From: Acanthamoeba lenticulata
Taxonomy: Eukaryota > Discosea > Longamoebia > Acanthamoebidae
Assembly (NCBI GenBank): GCA_002179805.1
Contig: NAVB01000032.1
Location: 1-64,000 of the forward strand
DNA length: 64,000 nt
Direction of reading: 5' to 3'
The notes beneath the pieces were generated by a model that saw nothing but the letters and a program-made list of their open reading frames with translations, was not told where the DNA came from and ran no database searches. A program made the position numbers and the translations under genes. This document shows, in pieces, positions 17,528-63,706 of this stretch. Position 1 is the first letter of the stretch. Each line of letters opens with the position of its first letter.

Positions 17528-18240
17528 ATGGAACAACTTGAATTTATGATGGAGATCAAAAAGGGCACCAGCGGCATGGTCTACCAGGCATACTCTCTTG
17601 TGCTAGAGACCACGGTCACCATGAAGAAAGTCAGTAGCAACAACAAACGAAGACAAGAATGGAAGCTGGAGATGGCCAAGAGGGAAGGGATTCTGCTACA
17701 GGACTACATCAAACATCCTCACATCGTCAAGTGTCACGATGCATTCCAGACAGTGACCGGCGTCGAAGCCTTGCACTATCTACATGATGATCTGGGGGTA
17801 GTTCATCAGGACATCAAGATGGAGAACATCCTCATGCGAATGACCCCTGAAGGTGAGGGTGAGGTGGATATTGCACTGGCTGACTTTGGATTTGCCACAA
17901 TGTGGCAACGACCCAAGAAGACCTACAAGGCTGGTTCATCAAGGGCCATGGTGGGAACATTTCCTTACATGGTGCCTGAATGCATCAACCCTGATCAATA
18001 CCTCTACCCACACGGTCTTCCAGCCACTGACATGTGGTCGGCAGGTTGTGTGGTGATATCCATACTCACCTTGAGAATACCCTTTGGAAGAACATATTCA
18101 CTGGGATCTATATGCCACTGGATGCTGATGCATCTCCTGACGCCAGAGACTTTGTGGTGTGCCTGATGCGACTTGACCCCAAGAACAGGCTCACGGCAGC
18201 CAAGGCCTTGCAACATCCTTGGCTTCATTTGAAACAGTAA
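17528..18240 (+). pseudogene. Ser/Thr protein kinase relic with internal deletions
   Basis: The glycine loop is imperfect (KKGTSGMVYQAY), followed by HPHIVKCHDAF. The hinge and alpha-D/E region is then missing, because the text jumps directly to ALHYLHDDLGVVHQDIKMEN. HRD is HQD; DFG (ADFGFA) and the APE-like GTFPYMVPE are present. After SAGCVVISILTL the frame changes near 18080. The last lobe (DARDFVVCLMRLDPKNRLTA, HPWL) is in another frame, again with residues lost. The family phosphorylates Ser/Thr on proteins, but this copy cannot fold a full kinase. Confidence 0.75.
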
Positions 18241-18299
18241 ACACATGAATACAAAAAATTCCAAAGTATCATTCTGGGTTTTATTACACAAGTCTAGCT

Positions 18300-20529
18300 T
18301 TTCATGATGAGTGGCCTAAAATCAAGCACTGGATCTCCATTGCTGTATTTGAAAGATAAAAGAAGAAGAAGAAGAGGAGGAGGAGGAGGTTGATGGAGCA
18401 GGAGGTCATGGGTGATAGGGAGTGCCTCTCCTTGGGCCATGTGCTCTACATGGCCATCATTGTTGGGTCTAGGTTCAGAAAGTCCAGTTGGTTGCATGAT
18501 GTCCATGCCAATGATGAACTGGCTGTGTGTTTGCTTGGCAAATTGTGTTCTTGGTGGGTACATCTTCAACACGTGGTTGTTCTTGCCGCTGCTGGTGTCC
18601 TCTAATTGCAGGTTGGCAATGGTCAACTTGAAGTTGTGTTGATTGATGGCCTGATTGATGATGCCTGTGTTGGTGCACCACTTGTTGTAGGCCTTCTGGA
18701 ATTCGCTGTAGAGGATGTAGAGTTCTTTGTTGTTCAGTTCGAGGGTGATGTAGCTTGAATTCACAATTGAATGAACTGTGCCAGTGGGTTGGTATCTGAG
18801 GTGACCTGTGACTTCTGGTCGTGGAAGTAGTTGGGGAGGACCTGTGGTGTTTGCTTGTCCCAGATGCCTCGGTTGCTGTACTTGTGTGTGAACTGGAGGT
18901 AGTGTTGGAGCCCCTTAGTGATGAGCATGGGCAGCTCCTTGTAGAGCTGGTCCTGGAGTGTTGGGTCACTTCGATAAACTCTTCAAAGGCAAAGACCATG
19001 AGGTGGTGAATGACAGAGCCGGTGGTGTCCTGGTAGTCTGGCAGCTCATTGCCGGCCATGCAGATTGGCACATCCCATGGACGTGCATGGATTGGGTTCT
19101 GCTGGTGCTTGACCAGGAGCTCTATCACTTCACTGGTGACGGCTGACTGGAAGGTGGCTTGCTCCAGGGTGAGCTTCTTCTTCACCTTGGGGAAGACCAC
19201 CAGGAAGCAGAGGCCATGGAGAACTGGGCTTGTGTGTTGTTGGCCATCATGTAGATGTTGCATGACTTGTATATTCACATGAGCGTGTTGATGATGGTGG
19301 ACTTGCCCGTGCTGGTGAGACCCAGCAGGTAGGGCGCCACCTGCCACTTGTTGCGCTCGTTGGTCTTGAAGATGGGCTGGCCAAAGAGCATCATGTAGAA
19401 CCACTCCTTGACTTCAGGGCTCCACTTTTGACTGTTGAGGATGGTATCCATGTTGGGCGTGGGGATGGCCTCGACTGGGAAATCCTTGTCTGCCCATTGT
19501 GGATCAAAGCATTGCTTGATGTAGTTGGCTGAGCTGATGTCCGCGGGGAGCTTGTTGTCCACCTGATCGTAGGGGATGAAGTAGAGCTTGTTGGTGATGC
19601 GAAGGCGCTGGTGGGTCTTGGTGATGGGCTGGTCATTACCGTTGGGAGCCACCAGGATGCTGTTCTTGAACGAGAGCACATGGCAGTCCTTCTTCAGCTC
19701 AGGAAACTCCTCATTGGTGTAGCTGTGCGTGAGGTAGTGGATGACCTGTTGCTGGATGTTCTTCTGCGAGAAGTGTACCCAGAATTGGCCGAAGCGCTTC
19801 TTATCCATGCACTTGCGCATCACGAACTCATTGATCTTGATCGTGGCTATGTAGTGCCTCGTGTCTTGATTATCCGATGTGACCTGCTTTGAGCAGGCCC
19901 AGTCCTGGTGCCACTGCAGTTGACAGGTCTCCAGCATAGCCAGGGCAAAAATTGTGCAGTGGTTTCGACACGTCATCCTCTTGACCTTGGCTTGCAGGTG
20001 ATCGATCTCTCGATGAATGGAATGGTCGGGGCAGATGTCTGCGCGTGAGCTCCTTGAACATGGAAAAGCGTGTCTGTTGCTCCCTCATCATCTCCTCGGT
20101 CCTCTTCTGGGCCAAATCCCAGTTCCCACTCAAGAACTGGTTGTGGGTCTGGCGACCCTCGCCCGCCAGCTTGAGGAAGTTGATGATCGCATTGAGGGTG
20201 CTGTTCTGGTACTTCTGAAGGAGCGCGTTGAGTCTTTTGTTTGAACCGTCCACTAGGCTTGGTATCTTTTGACAGGCCAGCTTCTGCTTGCGTGTCAATG
20301 GGACAGCTGCTTGTCCCTCTGGATCGCCGCCAGAGGCCAATGGCGCGGGAGACCTGCCATCTGGTGTTGGGTACATAAGCCACTGTGTTGTAGATGGTTT
20401 GTGAAACAGCGGCACCGGATGGTTTGTGAAACAGCGGCACCGAAAAGGCCTCATTATGTCTTCCATAACATGAACGCCACAACTGGCAGCTTTTAACGGA
20501 TTATTTGTCAAACTTTTCTCACATGCCAT
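18300..20529 (-). pseudogene. D5-type SF3 primase-helicase relic
   Basis: Frames on minus hold a D5-like NTPase in pieces. The D5_N region has FKNSILVAPNG and KLYFIPYDQVDNKLP, followed by WFYMMLFGQPI and a Walker A in LLGLTSTGKSTIINTLM. A TGA (19275-19277) follows at once. After a frame change come FPKVKKKLTLEQATFQSAVT and MAGNELPDYQDTTGSV, the classical SF3 sensor region. Two more shifts follow. The N-terminal part (19985-20529) shows no primase motif I can identify. D5-type proteins unwind DNA at replication forks of giant viruses, virophages and some transposons. This copy has one internal stop and at least four frame changes, so it is dead. It lies just downstream of PolB on the same strand. 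Confidence 0.82.
20394..20441. repeat. Short tandem duplication
   Basis: GGTTTGTGAAACAGCGGCAC occurs twice with a 26-bp period in the 5' part of the D5 relic. It encodes a repeated short peptide on minus (PLFHK). It is a local slippage duplication. Confidence 0.7.
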
Positions 20530-27210: not shown

Positions 27211-27597
27211 GGCCGCTCTTCCTCGACATCCTGCGTAACCAAGTGGCACCAAACGATACATTGCGAGCATCCTCGACTGCACACTTCCTAGCGGGTGCTA
27301 GTTCTCGTTGAGTTCACCTTATTAAAAACAAACGATTCATTTTTATAGATAGTGGTCCGTGTTGATGCGATCAAAGTCAACATTGTCGAGGTTGATGATG
27401 ATGACAGAGTTGAAATGATTGATCACGTCTTGATGCTGATGTTGGTGACATCATTGTTGATATCATCGTCAATGTCAACGTTGATGCTTATGGATATCAT
27501 TATGTTGCATGCACCATCCCAAGTCTAAGTCTTAGTCTTGATCTCATCTAATCCGATCTGATCAATATAAATAATCATCAAAAATATATTTTTAATT
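27211..27597. other. Spacer, nothing recognised
   Basis: A/T-rich and GATG-rich DNA between the coiled-coil gene and TIR element B. Repeated TTGATG/ATCATC words give a low-complexity feel. No ORF of note. Confidence 0.5.
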
Positions 27598-27935
27598 GGA
27601 ATATTCTGATTGGCTTGTTCGCCAAAAACGCCAAACAAAGGCCAAAATAACAACTTTTAATAGTCCAAAAATCCTTACACTGCCGACTTCCTAATATGGA
27701 TATGTATACCATGCATACCATTACCTAATTAGGAAGTCGGTGCGTCAGAGAAGGCACTGTAAAATTCGTGGAGTCCGTATCCGGCTGCTTGCAGACTTCC
27801 TAATTAGGATATGGTATGTATGGAATGCTTAACCTAATTAGGAAGTCGGTAGTGTAAGGAATTTTTGACCATTAAAAGTTGTTTTTTCGGCCTTTGTTTG
27901 GCGTTTTTGGCGCACAAGCCAATCAGATAATTTCA
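27598..27935. mobile_element. TIR element, family member B (338 bp, empty)
   Basis: Long imperfect terminal inverted repeats of about 100 bp. The left arm holds TTCTGATTGGCTTG, CGCCAAAAACGCCAAACAAA, and further in CGACTTCCTAAT. The right arm is the mirror image. The inner part also has ATTAGGAAGTCGG repeats in both orientations, so the whole element can fold on itself. No coding capacity. It is the best preserved empty member of the family seen at 15100, 38874 and 56029. Confidence 0.8.
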
Positions 27936-27995
27936 ATTTAAATATATATTTTAAAAAATATTATAATAATAAAATTTAGATTCTAATCTCATCGA

Positions 27996-38475: not shown

Positions 38476-38873
38476 CAAGGTGTTTTGGGATATTGGAGCA
38501 CGCTTAAACTCTCAACTTCCAACCTCTATCGAGTTGGTGAATCGCCATTGGCATCAAGTGTCGTGCGCATTGAGATCAACCAAAACATATAAAGTGTGCA
38601 ACATCGTCAAATGTGCCCGTGTTCCACCCACAGATTTGATCTATCGATGCAACGCCATCACGACCTGCGAGCATCACAACAACTCGCATGATGAGTGCAG
38701 CCGGATCGTTGGTGTGTGTCCAGGACACACCAACGTCATCAGGGTGTATGTCCACAATTACAACATATTGCGTATGATGAATGGCATGGCTGGTCACACA
38801 TATGCAAACTGATCAGATCTTTAAAAAAATTGATCAATAAATATTATTTTACAAGATACATAAAATACACACA
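38476..38873. other. Spacer with a hairpin
   Basis: No firm gene; a 73-codon minus frame (38576-38797) is weak. A near-perfect palindrome around GTTGGTGTGTGTCCAGGACA lies at 38708-38735. Confidence 0.4.
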
Positions 38874-39499
38874 AAAAATCTGATTGGGAGTTGCGCCAAA
38901 AACGCCAAACAAAGGCCAAAATAACAACTTTTAATGGCCCTAAATCACTTACACCTACTGATCTCCTAATTAGGTAGTGTATTCTTTACATACCATAACC
39001 TTTTTTGGTAGTCAGCATTTGTGCCAGGGTATTCTGTACGGCGGTTTTCCGCCTATTCCACTAATTTTAGGGCTATTGTTTTTTTAGATATTATTTATTA
39101 TTTAGTTCTATGGTGGTCCCAAACAGTTTTTATTCCAGTGGACCAACACCCACCATCCACGGGAGGCAGTTTCAGCAAGTTGATCAGCCTGCAAAAGACA
39201 AAGCTGTTACAACTTGGGTGAGAAACAATTCCCAGTGGTATCTTTTGATTGGCTGACACATGCTGGCTGGCTTGAACTGAGTGGAAACAGTGCAGTAGAA
39301 AAACAGCATGTTTATTCAGGATGACAAGAAGATCACGCCTTCTGGGAACATTAAATAGCCCAAGATGGTGCTGTTTGATTGTAAATCCAAATCAAAGTCT
39401 GCTGGACAGTTTTTGGCCTTCTGGAAAGCTGCCAGTGCTTGTAGGTGGCAATGGAGCCCTCACAGTGCAAGACCTTTATTGGACCACCCCTAAAAAAAA

Positions 39500-40740: not shown

Positions 40741-41207
40741 ATTGATTCGCAACTCAAAGATGATGAAAGAATAGAAATACAAATGGGTCATTGATTTGAT
40801 CACCGAGATAGGGTCAATGGTCGTGTAGTCGGTGACGTGTATGTGTGTATGTGTGTGTGTGATCTCTTACCTAATGCCATTATTGATCTAAAGAATCAAC
40901 AAACATCAGATCACCAAGGTACTCTTGAGCGTTGACTACATAGATCCGCATGCCCCTAATACGCCACACATGACTATCACAATTACGTCAATGACACCAA
41001 CGATCATGTACATATTGACCATAATGTAAGGATCTACCCCGAGACTTGCCGACTTCCCATTTAGGGCAAATTATGTAAAGAATGTTTAACCTAATTAGGA
41101 GGTCATCAAGCGTAAGGATTTTAGGGCCATTAAAAGTTGTTATTTTGGCCTTTGTTTGGGGTTTTTGGCGCAACTCCCAATCAAAAAAATCCAATAAAAA
41201 TGATAAT

Positions 41208-46578: not shown

Positions 46579-46754
46579 GATTTACTACACAATCCATATG
46601 GAGAAAAATGGGACAAGTACCTGTATGAGGCATGGATGCCAGCCCTTATCAGGTTGTATGGTCAGGCCGGATATAGGGTGGTATCTGTGCTGCACAACAC
46701 GCATTAAACCAATATGCACTTCCTCTTTCAAAAATAAAACACATATTGGATTTT

Positions 46755-46769
46755 CATGTGAAATCACAT
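46755..46769 (+). promoter_or_regulatory. Shared dyad element CATGTGAAATCACAT, copy 2
   Basis: Perfect inverted repeat ATGTGA-AA-TCACAT, 80 bp before the SP-RING-like gene 2 ATG, with flanking TGGATTTT also shared with 62215. Confidence 0.6.
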
Positions 46770-46848
46770 AAAAGATAAAAGTATAAATATATCTATTTTT
46801 ATATTCATTTATCATTGCCAACAACAAAACACCCAGATATCAATCAGC

Positions 46849-47959
46849 ATGCAACACAAAGTGACCGACCTCCACTATGTCCACCAGAACTACAACAACA
46901 AATGCCCTGAGGACACAGATGAGGAGCCCTATGATGGTCATGATGAGAGTGACTTTATGCGCCGCATGAGTCTCAACATCACGTGGGGTGGCATCCCTGT
47001 GCCCACTACCTGTCTGATCTCCAAGGACTACATCAACGACCTGTGTCGTGGGCCTCTCTGTGCCCACTTTCACGCCTTTGGTCAAGCGGCCTACATCGCC
47101 AAGACTACCGAGGCTCTTCGGGATCACAAGGCCAAGACCAATGGAATGCTACAGCGCCTCTCAGAGATTGGTTCAGCTCTGTCATCGTTGCCCATCAAGA
47201 GGAAGACGAGGAGCTCAAGCCCAAGTCCATCAACATGCTGAGCATGCTCCAACTGCAGGCCTTGATCAAAAAGGCGATACCCAAGTTGCTTGTGGCACTC
47301 AACCACTATGGCAGGCTCAAGTACGAGGTCTGTCCAATCTGCAAGGCTCTCACCCCAATGGACAGTCTCATCAACGCAGACGACTTTGCCCAGTAGGCCT
47401 CCAAGCACAATCCCGCCAAGTCGCCCAGCATCATCTATCCTCCTGGATGGAACCTCAGCCAGACTGCCTATAGCTACCACGACGGCAAGTTGCGCATCGT
47501 CAACACAGCCATTACCACTGCCTGTCAACACGCGCATCAGCCCATCTGCCTCGCCAGAACCGAGGCCATCCTCTACGAGACCGAGAGCGTGCTCGATAAC
47601 TTTGCCAAGATCGAATCCAGGCTCAAACGTCACTACGAGGACGTGGTGGACGTCCTCGACAATGAGGATGACTCGAGCGTGACCCTTTTAGCGAAGAGAA
47701 GATCCACAAGTGTCCCTACCCCAGCTGCAGCAAACCCCTCTTGTCGTCCACTGGCAAGATCCTGCTTGAGTCAACTCCTGCCACGAAGGCCTTTCAAGCC
47801 AGAGTCGACGGTTCATCTCCACACACAATCAGGCTCAGAGAACCCAAGTACATTTGTATCGACAAGGAGAACAACAAGAAGAAGAAGAGGAAGCACACTC
47901 ACAAAAAGAAGTTGAAACAAGGACGTGAGACCAAAAGACGCAGGGAGATTGAAGTGTAA
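46849..47959 (+). pseudogene. SP-RING-like zinc protein 2, decayed
   Basis: Starts MQHKVTDLHYVHQNYNNKCP. It holds TTCLISKDYINDLCRGPLCA with H and F following, so the first SP-RING half has Leu for the usual Pro after Cys. A frame change follows near 47200. The second half is YEVCPICKALTPMDSLI. TAG at 47394-47396 stands where copy 3 has Glu. After another break near 47690, KCPYPSCSKPLL and a basic tail follow. Sequence and promoter match copy 3 (62312-63514) closely, so this is the dead sister within the duplicated block. Confidence 0.75.
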
Positions 47960-48302
47960 TATATGTTATTTAGACAGACAAAGAACAGGGTTTCCTTCCA
48001 CCTCATGCAACTCTTGGAGGAATTAACAAGAGATGAGGGAGAATATCATGGCGCTGCAGGCAACACTACAGGGGAGATGGCCATGTGCAAACAGGGCGAC
48101 CACAAGGAACCAAGACATAAATCCCGTTACAACTATTGTGTGAAAGTAGCAGTCATGTTCACAGTCACGCGCCAAACTGCTGCAAGCCGCAATAAAATTC
48201 AAATGTATCCGTGTAACCATAAACCAATGGGCACATTTTATTATTTATTTATCAACAGCGGCAACACCAAGGAGGCCTTTGCACACACACATCTAAAACC
48301 AA
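47960..48302. other. Spacer
   Basis: About 340 bp between the SP-RING-like relic and the HNH gene. No gene seen. Confidence 0.5.
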
Positions 48303-48785: not shown

Positions 48786-48803
48786 ATGGAGGAAGACATA
48801 AAC

Positions 48804-49093
48804 TGTTACAGAGCAGGGTTGAGCACTGCTCTGTACCAACTCTGTCACTGGCTCTCTACACACTATGTGCCTGCCTGGCACCCTCTTAAGAGAGCTGCGA
48901 CTGCGGCAGACTGCCACAGAGTCAACAGCAAGTGCGCCAATGGTGCACTGCGTCCGTTAGCATAAATGTGCCAAAACAAAACGCAAATAAACATTCTCTT
49001 TTCTCTCTTTACTTTACAGCTCTTCTTCGTCTTGCGTAGCAGTCTCTTGGCATCGACCGTGCTCGGAGTCCTTTGTCCCCACGCTTTGCTACA
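48804..49093 (+). mobile_element. 5' LTR of the copia element
   Basis: 290 bp, TG...CA ends (TGTTACAGAGC...TTTGCTACA). It differs from the 3' LTR at about 19 bases in 17 CpG sites and nowhere else. Possible primer site region GGTTATGGGCCC directly follows. Confidence 0.95.
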
Positions 49094-49108
49094 GGTTATG
49101 GGCCCATG

Positions 49109-52100
49109 CATCACGCAATGACATTGAAATCGACTTCCACTTTGCACATGGTCGCCCTGACTTGCCTCGCATCGAGTGAGGACTACGACACATGGCTATT
49201 GAATCTACAAGTCTACCTGCTCTTGCACCATCTTTGGAGCTTCACGTTAGAAGCGTCAGTCTGCCCTGCACCTCCCATTTACACCAGTGAGGGTCTACCT
49301 CCGCCTCCTACTCCCGACATGCGAGCCCAGATAATCAACTACACCAAACACCAAGAACAAACACTTGGCATTATCCTGAGCAGTCTCAAACCAAACCTAC
49401 AGCCAAGCCTCAGGGTACACAAGAGCCCCTACTCGCTTCTACAAGCAATTGAAGCCCACTTCAAGCCTCGCCAAGCTGGCCGTCTTGTTGCTACTATGAT
49501 GCGCTTCCTTGCGCTATGCAAGGAGCCAGACCAAACGCTTGAGGACTACTTCAGCCTGGTCAACCAGATGGTTGCTTCCCTCAACACGCAGCCTGGCTAC
49601 AAGTTCAGCAGACTGGTCATGCTCAACATCATGCTACTCGGCCTCCCTAGCAAGTTTAACCTGGTGTGCATCCTCATTCAAGACTGCAGTGAAGTCAAGC
49701 TCGAGGCCGTGAGAACAAGGATACGCAACTTTGACACGAACTGATGTCTAATGGACAGCACAAGTGAGGGTCTTCTCTTCACATCGTCTAGGCATCCGTG
49801 TCCGAACGACTCGCCTCACCTGAGGACTACACCATTGACAAATAAACCAGCTCAAACCAGCCAATTGGCACTGAGTCAACCTTCATCAACTTCAACCTTG
49901 AGCGCCATGGACAGCAAGACTCCTGCCTGACGTTGCAATTACTGTTGGCAACCAGGCCATGTCAAGGAGGAGTGTCCTTGCCTCAAGCACAAGAATGAGA
50001 AGTCCAACTCAACCCAGACCAGCCCAGGACCGCTTAATCTTCTCCACACTCAAGCCGTGAAGCAGCTCGGCAATGAACGCCATCTATGGTACCTCGACTC
50101 TGGCGTGTTGTGCCACATGACCGGCAAAAGGTCGTGGCTACATGACTTCGAAGCCATTGAGCTGCACACCATCTACTTCAGAGACAATTCCACAACAGTC
50201 GCTACGGGACGCGGGACCATTGTCGCTGAACACAAGCTCCACAACTTGAACGCCCACATTGAGCTTCAGGAGGTTCTCTTCATACTGGCTCTCAAGAAGA
50301 ATCTCATCTCGACCGCCTGAATCCTTCAGCCCAGCCTCGAGCTCGTAATGAATTCCACTGAGTGCAAGTTGTTCAACCACAGCAACAAGCGTGAGGTTCT
50401 ACATGCAGGACGCAGCAACAACATGTACACAGTCGATCTCTCGGTACTTGCTCCTCCCAAACACACTCTTGCCAGTTGTGTTACTGAGTGTACTTTAGAG
50501 CTTCTCCATCGTCACCTTGGGCACGCCTCTTGCGCGCATGTACTCACCACTGTGAAAGCGGCCAATCTTGCACTCTCAAATGAGACACTCCCTGAGTGCG
50601 AGGTGTGCATCAAGGCCAAGGCCAAGCGTCCAGACATCTCCTTGGGGCCTGCCAAGCGCACCACGACCTTTCCTACCAAGGTCGTTCACGCCAACATCGC
50701 CGGTCCCTTCAACATCCCATCGCACAGTGGCAATCGCTACATGCTCATGATGGTGGACAACTACATGAGATTCTCTCAAGTCTTCCTCATCAAGCGCAAG
50801 AGTGACGCCCCAACAGTGATCAAGACGTACTTTGAGCGCTCTCCCCATCCGGCACTGAAGCAATGTGTGCTCCACACCAATCAAGGGGGCGAATTCATTA
50901 ATAAACAACTACTCAGGTATCTTGACCAGCTCAACATTCGTCACAAGACAACACTGTCGCATACCCCTGAGTTCAACAGCATTGCTGAGCGACTCAATCG
51001 CACGCTCGGCAAGATGACACTCACGCTACTTCTCGACACTGGCCTCCCCAAGATTTTCTGGGGAGAGGCGATGCGCGCCTTGTCCATCATCAACAACAGG
51101 CTACCCTCGAGTGCACTCAACAGAGTCTCTCCATTTGAGCGCTGGTATGGCCTGCCTCCGCCAGTCACCAATCTACGTGCTTTCAATCCCCAGTGGCCAA
51201 TGCAAGAAGCTCGACGCACGTACCCGTGAAGGGTATTATCTTGGCCCAGCCCACGACATGGCCTTGCACCATCACATCTACATCATCTCCATGAAGGTGG
51301 TCATTGAGACTCGTGACGTCACTTTCAGTGAGCTTCACGTCTCGACCGCCTCTGGAGCCTCTGCATCGACTCCTCCTCCAGCCACGATGGACACTCAGGT
51401 GCCCAATCAGGCCGCGAATAAGGAGACGCCGAGGTATGCCAAGTGGACCACTGAGGAGTTCCGTGTCACACACAAGCTGGGAACCACTCCCATCATCATG
51501 CCCATTGATGATTTGCCGATGCCATCTCTCTACAACCCGATGGCCAACATCAAACCAGTCACGATTCACAGCGACAAAGACGAAGTCAAACCCACTACCA
51601 TGACAGCCAACGTCAAGGGACCCAATACAGTACCCATTCACATCATCAAGCCCACTCTCAAGAAGCCTGTTCAGCTTCCTGACCTCATTGATGATGTACA
51701 AACCGGTACTCGCCCTGCTCCTACTTGCGGTTCTTTGCAGTTGAGGGGTGATCAAGCACGCCAACTTCAACCAGTGGGGACTCATTCAACCTGTCTCCCG
51801 CCTCAACTCCACCATCAAGTACTCGATTCCCACGCCAAAGATGATCAAGGAAGCCCGCACAAGTGAGCAAGTTCTTGAGTGGCAGTTCACGATGGATGAG
51901 GAATACTACAGCCTCACCAAGAACCAGATGTGGGTCCTGGTCCTGAAACCTAAGGGGCGCCACGTCATCAAGGGCAAGTGGGTCTTCAAGATCAAGTTTC
52001 GAGCCAACAGCTTGATCAACCGCTTCAAGGTGCGCTTTGTAGCCAAGAGCTACACTCAGCACTTTGGCATCGACTTCAATGAGACCTTCGCGCCCATCAT

Positions 52101-53403
52101 CTACATTGGCAGCCTACGCTTCATCCTTGCGCTCTCTGCTGCACTCGACCTCAAGATCAAGGTTCTTGACGTCAAGGGCGCTTTCCTACACTCGGCCCTT
52201 GATGATCACAACATCTATGTCAAGCAGCCCAAGGGCTACGTCGACCCTGATCATCCTGACTGGGTCTGCAAGCTCAACAAGAGCTTGTACAGCCTCAAAC
52301 AGGCGCTGTACATTTGGAACAAGGAGATCGATGCACACCTCTGTTCCAATGGCTTTGCCACCGTCAAGGCCGATCCCTGTCTCTACGTCAAGCGCGAGAG
52401 AGGTTCTCTCGCCATGATTGGTCTCTACGTCGACGACTGTACTGTGGCCGCTCACGCGACGCTGGTACAAGGCGTCATTGATGTACTCATTGTGGCCTTC
52501 AAGATGCAGGACCTCAGCGACGCCTCATCCATCCTCAGCATGGAGGTCCTTCGTGATAGACCTAATCGCTGGATCTATCTACGCCAATGCGGCAAGATCG
52601 ATGAGATTCTCCACGCCTTCAACCTCGTCGATGCCGCTGGCCAAGCCACTCTGATGGAGGCCAAGTTACAACTCATCAAGGACGCTCCTGGCGACAAGCT
52701 GATTGACACGCCCTATTGTTGAGTGATTGGTATGCTCTTGTATCTCGCCAATGCGACTTGACCCGACATCAGCTTCGCTGTCAACTACCTTGCCCGCTTC
52801 TCTGAGAGCCCTTGCACGTCGCATTGGAAAGCGGTACAACGCATCATCAAGTACCTGAGAGGTACTCGTGAGCTCGCCATTCTCTACGATGGTAGTGGCA
52901 TCGACTCGACTGATCTGCACCCACTGACTCCAATCATCTACTGCAACGCCGACTATGGTGCCGACATGATGACCAGACACTCAGTGTCTGGTCGTGTCAT
53001 GATGTGCCATGGACTGATCTTCTGGGCCTCTCAGTCCCAGAAAGTTGTCTCCCTCTCTTTGACTGAGTCCGAGCTCTTCGCTCTCTCCAAAGCTGGCAAA
53101 CACTGCCTCTACCTCCACAAGTTTCTCTCTCTTCTCGACGAGACCGCTTCGATCCTCCTTCTCAACAACAACCAGAGCGCCCTTACTATCGTCGGCTCTG
53201 AGGCCGATCTTGTGCACACTCGATGCAAGCACTCGAGTGTTTGTCTCGCTCATCTACACGAGGCATGCAGCTGAAGGCTGATCGACATCCGTTACGTGCC
53301 CATGAAGAACAACGCCGCCGACATTCTGACCAAAGCTCTCGTCATCACCAAGCACGAGTACCTCGTGCGCATCGTGGGACTCATCTACCCATTGTGCACT
53401 TGA
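49109..53403 (+). pseudogene. Copia gag-pol polyprotein, six TGA stops
   Basis: Gag (49109-49744) has the DYDTWLLNLQVYLLLHHLW helix set, followed by the zinc knuckle RCNYCWQPGHVKEECP. Protease follows with LWYLDSG. The integrase has HRHLGHAS, HANIAGPF and TNQGGEF. After frame changes near 51195 and 51700, RT has FKVRFVAKSYTQHFGIDFNE and GLYVDDC, and RNase H shows SLTESELFALS and RYVPMKNNAADILTKAL. In-frame stops at 49742, 49928, 50318, 52720, 52759 and 53272 are all TGA. At 49928 and 52759 the family usually has Arg, as from CGA. RT YVDD is intact. Confidence 0.95.
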
Positions 53404-53409
53404 GGGGCG

Positions 53410-53699
53410 TGTTATGGAGCAGGGTCGAGCACTGCTCTGTACCGACTCTGTCGCTGGCTCTCTACGCGCTACGTGCCTGCCTGGCACCCTCTTAAGAGAG
53501 CTGCGACTGCAGCAGACTGCCGCAGAGTCGACAGCAAGTGCGCCAATGGCGCACTGCGTCCGTTAGCATAAATGTGCCAAAACAAAACGCGAATAAACAT
53601 TCTCTTTTCTCTCTTTACTTTACAGCTCTTCTTCATCTTGCATAGCAGTCTCTTGGCATCGACTGTGCTCGGAGTCCTTCATCCCCACACTTTGCTACA
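53410..53699 (+). mobile_element. 3' LTR of the copia element
   Basis: 290 bp, TGTTATGGAGC...TTTGCTACA. See the 5' LTR for the CpG-only divergence. Confidence 0.95.
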
Positions 53700-53807
53700 T
53701 AAACTCCTTCTTGGAAATACTAATTCAACAAAACAAGATCAAAATCATTCATTCAGCCTAGTTTCCCTCTTTGTTGTGTTAACTGAACTTCCTTATCGCA
53801 ATTGCAG

Positions 53808-55148
53808 TGAAGGAAGATGCAATCCTCCATGGTGCCCGCTTGGTGGTCATGAAAGGTGAATGGCAGGGATGTAACGTTGCTATCAAGATGCCCAAAAACG
53901 ATCAACAATCCAACTACATAGACTTGGTGACTGAAATTCATACCCTCAGGTCTCTATTTCTCAATGTTGGTATTTTGGTCTGAATTCTCGAATGAACTGA
54001 CTTAATTGGCATGTAGGCAACTCCATCACCCGAATATAGTCAAACTGTTGGGGGTGACAGTGTTAACACTGAACGTCTGATGGTCGACCCTTGTTGGTGA
54101 TGATCACTGAGTGGGTGCCTCACACGTTGTTGAGCCACCAATTACCACCATCGTGGGACCCTATCGATTTGACCAAAGCCATCGTCGAAGGTTTGCAATA
54201 TATACATCACCACAGATTACTTCACCGCGACTTAAAGCCAGGCAACATTTTGGTACGTCAGTGCCTATTTAGCTTGAGACTGTTTTCCCTCCTCCATTTT
54301 ACAATAACTCCACTTTTGGGGTTCAGGTATTACCTGACGGTAGTACAGCCAAGATATGTGATCTGGGCGAGTCCAAGAAGGTTGCTGGCCCTGAAGATCC
54401 ACCGCTGACCGCTGGCGTAGGTACTATTCATGCATTCACAGACCCTTTGTGTTAGAGCTGACTCTCCCACCATTAAGGTACTGCCGGTTATCGTGCGCCT
54501 GAAGTCCAGCAAGGCCAACCTTACAACGAGAAGTCAGACATCTGGAGTCTGGGTAAAATTATGGACACCCTCTACTACAATTTCAGGGATGAGGAAAGAG
54601 AGCTCCCCGGCGGTTTCATCGATTTGGGCAGGTCTTGCGCAGCCAAACTACCAGGCGAACGTCTGGAGCTTGACGAAGTTAAAGCCCGACTGGACAGTCT
54701 CGAATATCGGTCGACGCGCGTCCAACCTCCTTCGAACCACCGTCCTACGAAATCAAAGTCGACAGCTCACGTGCCAGTTGAAAGTTCTTCTTCATCGGAG
54801 GATTCAGACTATGAACCGGACGAAGAGGATGGTATTCCAGTACCCCCATGGCCGACTGTAGTCCCCAAGTCTGCCAAGTCGAACGGATCGCCAGTGCCCT
54901 CCAAGCCGAGCCCTGCCAAGTCGAATGGATCGCCGGCGCCCTCCAAGCCGAGTCCTGCCAAGTCGAACGGATCGCCAGTACACTCCAAGCCGAGTCCTGT
55001 CAAGTCGCCGGTGCCCCGTAGGACGAGTCCTGAGAAGCCGCGCTCGCGTCGTGAATCGTGGTGTCCAGAGGACGATGAATGCGTCTATTGCCACGACTAC
55101 AAGAATGGCAACAGGATGAAGCAGGCTTGCAAATTGAGACCTATGTAA
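53808..55148 (+). pseudogene. TKL-type protein kinase with SP-repeat tail
   Basis: Exons 53808-53949, 54017-54252, 54327-54420 and 54478-55148 are joined by introns of 67, 74 and 57 nt. Kinase text: GEWQGCNVAIKMPK, LHHPNIVKLLGVT, MITEWVPHTLL, LLHRDLKPGNIL, CDLGES (DLG for DFG), GTAGYRAPEV, SDIWSLGKIMDTLYY. Frame changes occur in exon 2 (about 54060-54100). A tail of three 14-residue repeats and a Cys-containing end (CVYCHDYKNGNRMKQ) follow. The glycine-loop exon lacks its own start; a candidate first exon with ATG 48786 is split from it by the copia insertion. TKL kinases phosphorylate Ser/Thr. Probably inactivated by the insertion and frame damage. Confidence 0.75.
54876..55001 (+). repeat. 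Three 42-bp tandem repeats in the kinase tail
   Basis: Unit starts AAGTCGAACGGATCGCCAGT. Starts at 54876, 54918 and 54960. It encodes KSNGSPVPSKPSPA with small changes, giving a disordered SPxK-type tail rich in possible proline-directed phosphorylation sites. Confidence 0.9.
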
Positions 55149-55427
55149 AAACTAGGTTTTTTGCGCAGTGAATAAACTTGTTTTTGCATCAACAGAGCAA
55201 CAAGAACATCAGTTGTTCGACACCCCCACCAAGGAAGCGTGGCAGGCAAGAAGCCGACCGAGAGAAGGCTATGGTGACGAACCAACACACTCGCTACTTA
55301 ACCATCTTCCACCAGCGTGTAAGGCAAAGAAAGCCAACTGTAATGAAATATGGCGCCCTAGTTTTTTCAATGGCGATACAGGGAGGGACGGCACGTCCCT
55401 GCCGCCTCTGTAATGCCACACAAAAAA

Positions 55428-55919
55428 TTACACGCCCAAGAACTGGGCCTTGGTCCTTCTCCAACAATTCCCCTCTTCGGTGTTCTTCTTGAGGTAGTCG
55501 CAGATCTCCTTGCTCCTCCTCGCCATCTCCTCCTGCGTGGCTGAGACGTGGCACAGTAGTGGGTAATTACGGAAGCCTTCCCAGAGAGATATCTTCTGGC
55601 GGGCAGTGCGAGGTCTGATGGAGTCGTTCGTTGCCTTTGCCAGCCAGTCCTTGAATGGCCCTCCCTTTTCCTTCTTCAGTGTCTTCTTGACGTAGTGGAG
55701 GTCATGTCCCAGGAGGATCGCTGCATGGAGGTTCGCCTGGCTGGTCTGACGGTAGAGCGAGTAGTCGTACGTCCAGTATTTGTGTTCAAAGTCGCTCAGA
55801 CCCTCACCCGGTGCCCCCAATCGCATGAGACGACGATGACAACGTTGCTGATCAAACGAGTGGTCACACAAGACATGAAGACCGACAAGGGATGTAATGC
55901 AGTTCTCAATGTTGTCCAT
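55428..55919 (-). CDS. DUF3102-like hypothetical protein, 163 aa
   Basis: MDNIENCITSLVGLHVL starts an intact frame. The block AAILLGHDLHYVKKTLKK, GPFKDWLAKA, then RPRTARQKISLWEG resembles the DUF3102 pattern (hxxhLxxhKxxhxHGxFxxWLxxxhxhSxRTAxxhhxh), found in phages, bacteria and some large viruses. Function unknown, possibly DNA-related. This match is by eye and tentative. Antisense ORFs exist on plus but show no motif. Confidence 0.5.
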   Translation of the reverse strand: MDNIENCITSLVGLHVLCDHSFDQQRCHRRLMRLGAPGEGLSDFEHKYWTYDYSLYRQTSQANLHAAILLGHDLHYVKKTLKKEKGGPFKDWLAKATNDSIRPRTARQKISLWEGFRNYPLLCHVSATQEEMARRSKEICDYLKKNTEEGNCWRRTKAQFLGV

Positions 55920-56028
55920 GATGACAACCTCGTTGATTGATGATGATGTGCAACATTGATGATGTCACGCGAGACATGGCCTCCAACAACATACAAAAAT
56001 CGATTTAAAAATGTATTTTTTTGATGAA
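55920..56028. other. A/T-rich flank of TIR element D
   Basis: Short A/T-rich DNA leading to the inverted repeat. No gene. Confidence 0.4.
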
Positions 56029-57715
56029 ATTTTCTGATTGGTCAAATGAAAAACGCCAAACCAGCCCGGAAAACATTACTCCCTGATGGCCTCGTTCGTT
56101 TAGACCCTAATTCCTCACATACCTTATCCTTTTTTGGTAGTCGGGGAGGGATGGGGAAAACCGACGGATGGAATAACCTGTCTATTTTACATTTGCATCC
56201 AACAGTTTTCCCCGTCCCCTACCCCGCCATTTTTTAACTATTTGTTTTTTATGATTTATTAACAATGGCCCAGATAAACGAGGGGGGGGATGAGCCTTAG
56301 GGTCCCATGGTGGTCCCGAACAGTTTTCATTCCGTGGACCAACAACACTCACCTTTACTGGGCCTGCTGGTGCACCCAACCTTCGAACAAGTATATGCAT
56401 ACTCTTCCAACACTAACTCACACAACTCAAAGGCAATGGAGGAGCTGCCGGTGGAGTTGAGGCTTCAAGTCCTCTCGCACGCGTCGGTCCCCGACCTGGT
56501 GCTTCGGTGGGGCACCGTCTCGAGATCGTGGAACAAGCTTGCCAACGACGATCACTTGTGGACGCGCCATCTGGACGAACAGCATCCAAAGTGGCGGACC
56601 ATCATGGGCTTCATGGGCATCGACCTCGGCACAACGCCACGCCGCCAGTGCTTCCGCCTACTCCTACCGCACGATCCAAAGGAGAAACGCATGGGTTGCT
56701 GTCGACATCGTCAGTGGAGGGGTGCCGCTTGCCTCTGCTGCACCTGCCGACGCTACCACAGCGACCAACAATGGGATGCCGGTGACTCGAAGGAAGACGT
56801 TTGGGATGACATGTTGGCAGTATCTTACGACGCCTACACACGCACCTAGAATTCACTAGTGACGACCAACGAAGAGGACCTCGACGTCATCTCCTTCTAT
56901 CGCGATCAGTCCTTCCAATTTGACATGCTCCTAAAGGAGGGACTACTAGAAATACGGGGGACCTTCGACGACGAGACGGTGGCCTGGACAGCGGAGGCGC
57001 ATCGCACTCTAAGACCACCGCTCCGCGACTGGCAGTACCTACTACGTTACAGTGATGCCAGACTCTACAAGGCACTGATGAGGAAGCATCCAGAGCTCTG
57101 CGACAACACTGTACTCGATCGCTACGGGGAACTACTCGACTGGTTCAGCGCGGAACCCAGAATTGTCCGGGAGGTCTACGCCGAAGCCAGTGGATCATGG
57201 ACGCGCGAGACGTTCCACGAGGCGCTAACGGCGCTTTTGAAGGCCGGGTGGCTCCAGAGGGAAGGGACATCGACCGCGGTCGCCTGGACCTACCCAACGA
57301 TCTACCTTCGATCGAATCGCAACCCAATGATGGAAGAATAAAAATACAATCGAATCAAGTGCTCTGATCGCCAAGAGGGTCAATGGTGGTGTAGTTGGTG
57401 ACGTGTATCGCACACCCCAACGTAGTTGAACACGGACAAGTCTCCGTCTATCTACAGAATCAACACACACACACACACGTCATCATCAACACACTCCTGA
57501 GAGATGACTACCCAGTTCTGCATGACACGAAAAGACCACACGCGACCATCAGAATTACGACAATGACACCAATGGCCATGTACACTTGCCGACTTCCAAA
57601 TTAAGATAAAGTATGTAAAGTATGCTTAACCTAAAAAGGAGGTCGGCAGGTGTAAGCGAGAGTTGTTTATTTCGGCCTGGTTTGGCGTTTTTGGTGATTT
57701 GACCAATCAAAAAAT
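56029..57715. mobile_element. TIR element, family member D, carrying an F-box gene
   Basis: The left end has TTTCTGATTGGTCAAAT and AAAAACGCCAAACC. The right end is the inverse (GGTTTGGCGTTTTTGG...ATTTGACCAATCA) and also keeps subterminal TTAACCTAAAAAGGAGGTCGG. Both ends and the F-box cargo parallel member C (38874-41191), but the arms are more diverged. Length 1.7 kb. Confidence 0.6.
56436..57341 (+). CDS. F-box protein copy 2, with in-frame TAG
   Basis: MEELPVELRLQVLSHASVPD and VLRWGTVSRSWNKLA form a clear F-box at the N-terminus. A Cys/Arg-rich middle (CCRHRQWRGAACLCCTCRR) follows. TAG at 56847-56849 sits where copy 1 has TAC (Tyr). The frame then continues as DLDVISFYRDQSF, ALMRKHPELCDNTVLDRYG and the C-terminal helix set to 57341. 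F-box proteins bind Skp1 in SCF ubiquitin ligases. The stop splits an F-box-containing peptide of 137 residues from the putative substrate-binding part. A single base change or error could account for it. Confidence 0.75.
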
Positions 57716-62085: not shown

Positions 62086-62311
62086 TCAATGCCTCCATTG
62101 TTGCTTCAAATACGAAGCTCGCGGGTAGCAGTCCAATCCCCTCTTTCAGAAATGAAGTTGCCAGTCTAGGCACGTCCCAACCCTGTTGACAGGACCACGG
62201 CTCCAGTGACGTCATGGATTTTCATGTGAAATCACATTAAGAAACAATATATATATATACATATCTATTTTCATTTGTAAATCACACAAAGTCATCAACT
62301 TGCAACACAAA
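62086..62311. other. Intergenic promoter region of SP-RING-like gene 3
   Basis: Contains the dyad 62223-62237 and a (TA)n run at about 62249-62260. Shares TGGATTTTCATGTGAAATCA with the promoter of gene 2. Confidence 0.5.
62223..62237 (+). promoter_or_regulatory. Shared dyad element CATGTGAAATCACAT, copy 3
   Basis: Identical to copy 2 (46755-46769); 75 bp before the ATG at 62312. Confidence 0.6.
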
Positions 62312-63514
62312 ATGGCCCACCTCCACTATGTCCGCCAGAACTACAACGACGAATGTCCCGAGGCCACAGACGAGGAGCCCTACGATGGTTACGATGAGGG
62401 TGACTTTACGTACCCCAAGCGTCTCAATGTGACGTGGGCTGGCATACCCGTGCCTACTACCTGCCCGATCACCGAGGACTACATCAACGATCCATGCCGT
62501 GGACCCCTCTGTGCCCACTTTCGTGCCTTTGGCCGAGCGGCCTACATCACCAAGACCGCTGGAGCTCTTCGGGAGCACAAGGCCAAGACCGACGGGATGC
62601 TGCGACGCCTCTCAGAGATAGGATCGGGCCTGACGTCGTTGCCGATCTTCGAAGAGGAAGACGAGGAGCTCAAACCAGAGTCGCGGTTCGAGTCCATCGA
62701 CGTGACGGGCATGCTCCAACTGCAGGTCATGATCAATAAGGCGAGAGCCAAGTTGATCATGGCACTCAACCTCTGCGCCAGGCTCAAGCACGAGGTCTGT
62801 CCGATCTGCAAGGCTCTCGCCCCAGTGGACGGTCTCATCGACGCCCATGACTTTGCTCGAGAGGCCTCCAAGCACGACCCCACCAAGTCGCCTGGCATCG
62901 TCTATCCTCCCGGTTGGAACCTCAGCCAGACTACCTACAGCTATCACAACGGCAAGTTGCGCATCGTCGACGCAGTCATCACAGTGGCCTGCCATCACAC
63001 GCGCCAGCCCATCTGCCTCACTGGGACCAGGAGCATCCTCTGCAACACTGAGAATGTGCTCACGACTCTCATCAAGCTCAAGGACAAAATTGAACGCCAC
63101 TACGATGACGTGTTGAACGTTCTTGATGATAGGGAAGACCCCAGCGTGGCTCCCTTCCGCGAAGCTTGCAAGATCGTGAAGGGACTCCAGAAGATGATGT
63201 ACAAGTATGTTGAGAAGATCCGCAAGTGTCCCTACCCCAGCTGCGGCAAACCCCTCTTGTCGTCCACTGGCAAGATCCTGCTCAAGTCGACTCCTGCCAC
63301 GAAGGCCTTTCAAGCCAGAGTCGACGATTCATCTCCATGTACAATCAGGCTCAGAGAACCTGAGTACATTTGTATCGACGACAATGGTGATGGTGATGAT
63401 GATGACAACAACAACAACGAGAAGAAGAAGAGGAAGTGTGCTTGTGAGACTGACACGAAGAACAAGTTGGAGCAAGTGCGCGAAACCAAGAAATGCAGGA
63501 AGATCAAAGTGTAA
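62312..63514 (+). CDS. SP-RING-like zinc protein 3, intact
   Basis: 400 residues from MAHLHYVRQNYNDECP. First half of the SP-RING type: TTCPITEDYINDPCRGPLCA followed by HFRAF, matching CPxT..I..P.RG..C.H...F. About 105 residues of helix follow (LREHKAKTDGMLRRLSEIGS, MLQLQVMINKARAKL). Then comes HEVCPICKALAPVDGLIDAH, matching CPVC.K.AP...LI. A later KCPYPSCGKPLL Cys pair and a basic, Asp/Asn-rich end complete the same order as protein 1 (12506). All SP-RING zinc ligands are present. A SUMO-ligase role is inferred from the motif; no SAP domain or SIM is seen. It is the only undamaged member, so it is the best one to study. Confidence 0.65.
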   Translation: MAHLHYVRQNYNDECPEATDEEPYDGYDEGDFTYPKRLNVTWAGIPVPTTCPITEDYINDPCRGPLCAHFRAFGRAAYITKTAGALREHKAKTDGMLRRLSEIGSGLTSLPIFEEEDEELKPESRFESIDVTGMLQLQVMINKARAKLIMALNLCARLKHEVCPICKALAPVDGLIDAHDFAREASKHDPTKSPGIVYPPGWNLSQTTYSYHNGKLRIVDAVITVACHHTRQPICLTGTRSILCNTENVLTTLIKLKDKIERHYDDVLNVLDDREDPSVAPFREACKIVKGLQKMMYKYVEKIRKCPYPSCGKPLLSSTGKILLKSTPATKAFQARVDDSSPCTIRLREPEYICIDDNGDGDDDDNNNNEKKKRKCACETDTKNKLEQVRETKKCRKIKV

Positions 63515-63706
63515 TGTATCATTCACCCAGACAAACAGTAATGTTTCTTGCCATCACATATACACTGATCCAGCACCAAGTAGTAGTTCGGACGCGCGTT
63601 GTAATCACAAAATCCACTCTTGGTTTGCATTCGTGCTTTATATGACGATGATGGCGGGAGGAGGAGAAAGAGGGAGCTTTCGTGGTGGATGAGCGGTCTT
63701 CTCCTT
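63515..63706. other. 3' spacer between convergent genes
   Basis: Nothing recognised in 190 bp. Confidence 0.5.

Follow-up and report, generated by a model that had tools for sequence, protein, structure and literature searches.

Methylated transposons lose their CpG dinucleotides through deamination of 5-methylcytosine (5mC), a kind of decay known in vertebrates, plants and some fungi. In human DNA, including the germline, the resulting excess of mutation at CpG is about 10-fold. RIP (repeat-induced point mutation), i.e., the directed mutation of repeats, involves a RID/Masc1-type methylase, acts in bursts during sexual reproduction and is expected instead to leave strand-coherent stretches of change. 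Within the genus Acanthamoeba, DNA methylation has already been described in Acanthamoeba castellanii, where, according to excerpts of the published account, it is predominantly at CpG (1.3% overall) and the LTR and LINE copies are preferentially methylated, the younger ones above all, with the exception of a divergent LTR group; both DNMT1 and DNMT3 are present (PMC12344493). Parts of another report indicate that virus-derived regions of A. castellanii, and the mobile elements within them, are methylated as well (PMC12210455).

Here we describe a Ty1/copia LTR retrotransposon of an Acanthamoeba genome, located at 48804-53699 of the window (the whole stretch of 64,000 nucleotides that was analyzed), in which the two LTRs have diverged exclusively at CpG sites.

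Structure and Insertion of the Element

The features of the element and of its left flank are as follows.

46747..48006, strand not applicable: left flank, a CpG-eroded relative of 62215-63559
48799..48803, strand not applicable: target-site duplication TAAAC, left copy
48804..49093, + strand: 5' LTR, 290 bp with TG...CA ends, 12 CpGs left
49094..53409, + strand: element interior, CpG observed/expected (o/e) 0.72
49286..49723, + strand: copia-type gag domain (PF14223, 35.2 bits, above the cut-off of 27)
50420..50959, + strand: gag_pre-integrase and integrase core, both below the Pfam cut-offs
51922..52659, + strand: copia reverse transcriptase (PF07727, RVT_2), a strong match above the cut-off
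53410..53699, + strand: 3' LTR, 290 bp with TG...CA ends, 17 CpGs left
53700..53704, strand not applicable: target-site duplication TAAAC, right copy

The domain order is that of Ty1/copia elements, with gag followed by the sub-threshold integrase (gag_pre-integrase 27.4 against a cut-off of 28.4, integrase core 28.3 against 32.6) and RVT_2 downstream. The pair of 290-nt LTRs was also returned by the repeat search. Since they have TG...CA ends and TAAAC on either side, both LTRs belong to one insertion, and the 5-bp duplication marks the element as a real insertion. The coding sequence is split into several ORFs and frames, i.e., this is a decayed copy, and a single intact frame is not necessary for its assignment to Ty1/copia. 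The sequence 3' of the 5' LTR (GGTTATGGGCCC) is reminiscent of a site for priming by the anticodon arm of the initiator tRNA (compare Drosophila copia). In a protein search, the top-scoring relative of the reverse transcriptase was a GagPol of A. castellanii Neff (44% identity). A profilin encoded on contig C607 of the same genome was aligned over 125 residues with the A. castellanii profilin II of PDB 1f2k and differed from it at 11 of them, which places the genome in Acanthamoeba, although it is probably not that of Neff. No contig with an alternative allele or an empty insertion site was returned when the right flank (53700-56700) was used as query; the matches were the flank itself, diverged paralogs on contig C1323 and a single short paralog on C31, which is the contig of the element itself.

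Divergence of the LTR Pair

The global alignment of 48804-49093 with 53410-53699 is ungapped along its 290 columns; the 19 mismatches fall into 17 sites, of which 15 oppose CG to TG or CA and two oppose TG to CA. The preliminary description, which had counted by eye 19 bases in 17 places, all of them at CpG, is therefore borne out to the base, and scoring by dinucleotide confirmed that there are no differences outside CpG along the 290 columns. Ten CpGs were lost in the 5' LTR (LTR1) and kept in the 3' LTR (LTR2), five were lost in LTR2 and kept in LTR1, two decayed to TG in one LTR and to CA in the other, and seven remain CG in the two LTRs. Just 74–79 of the 290 bases are positions where a transition could mimic a change of the CpG type, so that 17 CpG sites out of 17 are very unlikely to arise by chance (P ~1e-10); among 20,000 simulated random sets of 17 transitions the maximum was 12 of CpG type. 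The lower limit of the per-base ratio of CpG to other change (CpG:other ratio) for this pair was >75.

A Second Copy and Other Elements

The copy on C910 shares ca. 2 kb with the window element, of which four pieces with a total of 2,043 columns were aligned. CpG accounted for 178 of the 187 differences; 136 CpG sites had changed and 55 were kept, against nine differences at 1,661 other sites. The earlier statement that all mutation since insertion has been CpG transition holds in full, therefore, for the LTR pair, and for 178 of the 187 differences from this second copy. The ratios were fitted with a simple model in which the survival of a CpG has a single probability per copy, and those that do not survive become TG or CA equally often. 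The CpG:other ratio obtained was 146 (CI 80–302) for C31 against C910, 64 (35–140) against C957 and 17.5 (14.0–21.3) against C130. The LTR of C910 differed from LTR1 of the window element by 21 bases, 20 of them at CpG; its differences from LTR2 were 11 CpG sites plus one other base.

The search with RVT_2 gave 32 matches, counting fragments, and LTR pairs were sought in 14 elements and found in 12; no pair was found for C918 (at a contig end) or for C208. The most decayed of the 12 pairs, that of C1495, gave a ratio of 47 (16–122), with one CpG kept and nine of its 15 differences outside CpG, as if the CpGs had been exhausted before the other sites; the CpG o/e of this element drops to near 0.1. 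Ten young LTR pairs, which keep 160 of their 165 CpGs, had when pooled five CpG and three other differences (ratio 9.8, 2.4–45.9), although young pairs may hold transposition or base errors. We also compared copies with each other, retaining alignments of 200 bases or more with an identity of 78% or higher, and all the 11 resulting pairs were fitted. The interiors of C1285 and C882 had a ratio of 86 (67–111), based on 57 differences among 3,031 sites outside CpG (a count that excludes ca. 140 bases adjoining the 5' LTR). The ratio was 13 (5.8–32.6) for the close copy pair C1086/C700 and 20 (7.6–63.7) for the close gypsy pair C213/C1254. In these gypsy-type copies the loss of CpG was one-sided, with 19 lost only in C1254 and three only in C213.

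Six older pairs that do not combine C31 with C910 (C1086/C709, C130/C910, C239/C282, C242/C409, C433/C918 and C700/C709) gave ratios of 3.1–15.5, and for this reason a uniform extreme ratio in all elements was rejected. Diverged pairs include changes that predate insertion, from active lineages. Over the element pairs other than C31/C910 the ratio spans from 3 to 86. The extreme ratio is thus found in the family of the window element, in C1285/C882 and, loosely, in C1495, and not in all elements.

Nearly Intact LTRs Around Eroded Interiors

Another pattern was found in the elements on C1285, C882 and C1351, where most interior bins of 250 bases have a CpG o/e below 0.6 and the LTR bins have 0.9–1.3. 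For C1285 and C882 the host flanks are near normal, at 0.65–1.23, and one flank of C1351 is lower (0.5–0.8). When C1285 is compared with C882, the 3' LTR keeps 19 of 19 CpGs and the interior 21 of 230 (P 1e-17); two CpGs are lost in the 5' LTR of C882. The border of the erosion lies near the inner ends of the LTRs, except for ca. 250 intact bases inside the 3' LTR of C882. In contrast, in the window element LTRs and flanks have decayed too. Possible reasons for the sparing of LTRs are that they are unmethylated and protected, that eroded copies are mobilized in trans, that the LTRs have been converted, or that they were collapsed during assembly. If the three LTR pairs had the age of the C1285/C882 interiors (applying the rate of this pair to C1351 as well), ca. 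10 non-CpG differences would be expected and one was seen, so that protection alone fits the sparing poorly.

Controls and CpG Landscape of the Window

The bias was nearly missing in the gene pair used as control, C71/C399, with a near-normal ratio of 1.9 (0.9–3.7); on this one pair, non-repeat DNA of the same genome has been spared. The two stretches are 98.8% identical, either allelic or duplicated, and presumably carry a DNMT2-like gene, as judged from its motifs. Four comparisons of paralogs from the region of the window, 81–91% alike, gave ratios of 2.3–4.7.

Along the window the CpG o/e is mostly 0.8–1.1, with low patches at 18–20, 38–40 and 46–52 kb. The loss of CpG is greater in both flanks of the element than in their paralogs: between 46747-48006 and 62215-63559, 39 CpGs were lost only in the former and 15 only in the latter (P 0.0015), and for the right flank the losses were 31 against 13 (P 0.0096). 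Survival along the element is uneven, with one of 32 CpG sites kept in one stretch of 314 bp (P 0.0002). At 18001-20000 the CpG o/e is 0.33, with TpG and CpA raised; this is likely an old methylated patch, and the ORFs at 18478-19413 and 19873-20529 had no Pfam match.

Three diverged duplicated pairs are present in the window (43254-44107/59033-59885, 39958-41308/56535-57834 and 46747-48006/62215-63559), and the copy that adjoins the element (46747-48006) looks degenerate and CpG-poor. A cluster at 9569-31054 includes SNF2/helicase, the exonuclease of a family B DNA polymerase, PCNA, protein kinases, an NIF phosphatase and PP2C, and could be made of host genes or be a giant-virus insert. The relative search with its DNA polymerase piece gave no scored relative, and one gene of the window had a single relative at 70%. 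Common short inverted and direct repeats, MITE-like, are found at 27590-27977, 38826-39017 and 41045-41201.

Methylation and Repair Genes

A search for C5-methylases (PF00145) gave four matches in the genome, all exon pieces. The nearest solved relatives of the one on C10 are DNMT1, and a BAH match, below its cut-off, adjoins it; the other three we take to be DNMT2-type from their motifs. Neither a DNMT3-type nor a RID/Masc1-type methylase was recognized among the four pieces. An SRA piece on C1119 has UHRF1 as its nearest solved relatives. The search for a DNMT1/UHRF1 pair suggested in the preliminary description therefore gave a piece of either type, and the machinery for CpG maintenance appears to be encoded in the genome, represented by gene pieces rather than gene models. 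On C286 there is a TDG/MUG-like piece of a DNA glycosylase, closest to thymine DNA glycosylase, so that repair of G:T pairs is probably present; a lack of such repair is accordingly a disfavored explanation for the high ratio.

Origin of the CpG Bias

We consider it probable that the copia element, once inserted, was silenced by CpG methylation and then decayed through 5mC deamination. Silencing would have followed insertion, with methylation maintained by a system of the DNMT1/UHRF1 type; the 5-methylcytosines would then have deaminated, each independently and on one or the other strand, to leave TG or CA in place of CG, and the non-CpG bases would hardly have changed in the meantime. Both outcomes, TG and CA, do occur, and there are changes on both strands. 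No strand-coherent runs were detected in four lesion sets (runs test, P 0.055–0.93), and the effect of the 5' context was weak (P 0.034). Change limited to CpG, on both strands, at independent sites, with a weak context effect and a spared gene pair is what fits 5mC deamination. This reading, already put forward in the preliminary description, gains support from a second copy with the same spectrum, from one control gene pair that does not have it, from the DNMT1-, UHRF1- and TDG-type pieces, from the greater CpG loss in the two flanks than in their paralogs and from the methylation known in A. castellanii. A processive or strand-biased deaminase was discarded because there are no runs and, of the four lesion sets, a skew to the + strand was present in one (55:32, P 0.018) and absent from the rest.

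The size of the ratio, however, is not easily reconciled with plain deamination, being several times the mammalian value for 5mC in spite of the TDG-type piece. A ratio of 10 predicts 14.9 differences outside CpG for the LTR pair, where none was seen, and 131 for the comparison with C910, where nine were seen. This leaves two causes: mutation outside CpG may be very rare compared with 5mC deamination, or CpG mutation may be raised in these repeats. Also counting against plain deamination are the variation of the ratio among elements, the uneven survival of CpGs along the element and the lack of a recognized DNMT3-type match, given that A. castellanii has this type. With a ratio so far above 10-fold, the main rival is still a CpG-directed, RIP-like mutator that attacks repeats, perhaps via a methyltransferase, in place of slow deamination. 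Besides this deficit, the sole control gene pair is nearly free of bias, and CpG-biased change resembling RIP is known in basidiomycetes (PMC4014442, in part). We nevertheless regard such a mutator as unlikely, given the absence of strand-coherent runs, the weak 5' context effect, the DNMT1- and DNMT2-type but no RID-type methylases among the four matches (seen exon by exon) and the near-complete retention of CpGs in the ten young LTR pairs. A broader version, for which our expectation is lower still, is that Acanthamoeba has a CpG-directed mutational defense, in which the methylated bodies of some families would change from CG to TG/CA ca. 50–150 times faster per base than all other sites, with the LTRs of some elements at the border of the mutated zone; if true, it would amount to RIP-like inactivation outside fungi.

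Errors of base calling follow methylation in some technologies, and the assembly is fragmented (1,825 contigs, 48.5 Mb), from which it could be argued that methylated DNA was systematically miscalled or misassembled, giving rise to the CG to TG/CA differences. This is hardly credible, as a CG kept in one LTR stands opposite TG or CA within an identical context in its partner, both outcomes occur, and C1495 has come near to a CpG o/e of 0.1 with nine non-CpG changes in addition. Recombination or gene conversion with another copy could also have set the LTR pair, in which case the differences would not all postdate insertion, and conversion could yield the intact 3' LTRs of C1285/C882. However, the window LTRs have the same ends and an intact target duplication, and the LTR of C910 differs from both of them nearly always at CpG, so that a donor of the same family would import the same CpG spectrum; we give this origin very little credence. 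5mC deamination on a silenced element is, in our best reading, ordinary in kind, and the size of the bias in the family of the window element is not.

Comparison With Known Systems

The age of an LTR pair is usually estimated with a single clock. Since the divergence in the family of the window element is nearly all of CpG origin, ages obtained in this way would be grossly in error, and CpG and other sites provide two clocks, each of which can be read by itself. The element is also an amoebozoan record, in plain sequence, of likely past methylation, and a system for telling 5mC decay from directed mutation.

The observation is correct and of a known kind, in a lineage with methylation already documented; what is above routine is the extreme ratio in this family together with the LTR border. 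As in classical 5mC-deamination decay, CG becomes TG or CA on both strands, the effect is strong in silenced repeats and old copies are CpG-poor. The difference is in magnitude, 47–146 in four fitted comparisons and >75 in the window LTR pair, whereas other pairs in this genome are at 3–20, compared to the ca. 10-fold of the human germline. Literature searches, which cannot prove absence, found no mutation spectrum of LTR pairs for Acanthamoeba. With A. castellanii our case shares the genus, methylation at CpG (probable here), young LTR elements as its target and a DNMT1-type gene, but those studies, in the portions considered, measure methylation and ours the mutation spectrum of LTR pairs (PMC12344493; PMC12210455). 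The RIP-like hypermutation of Rhizoctonia solani AG8 is similar in its excess of CpG to TpG change, but there, as far as the relevant sections describe it, genes are hit too and CpG makes up ca. 40–50% of the C/T alleles (PMC4014442), whereas here no difference between the LTRs falls outside CpG, and the gene pair C71/C399 has been spared.
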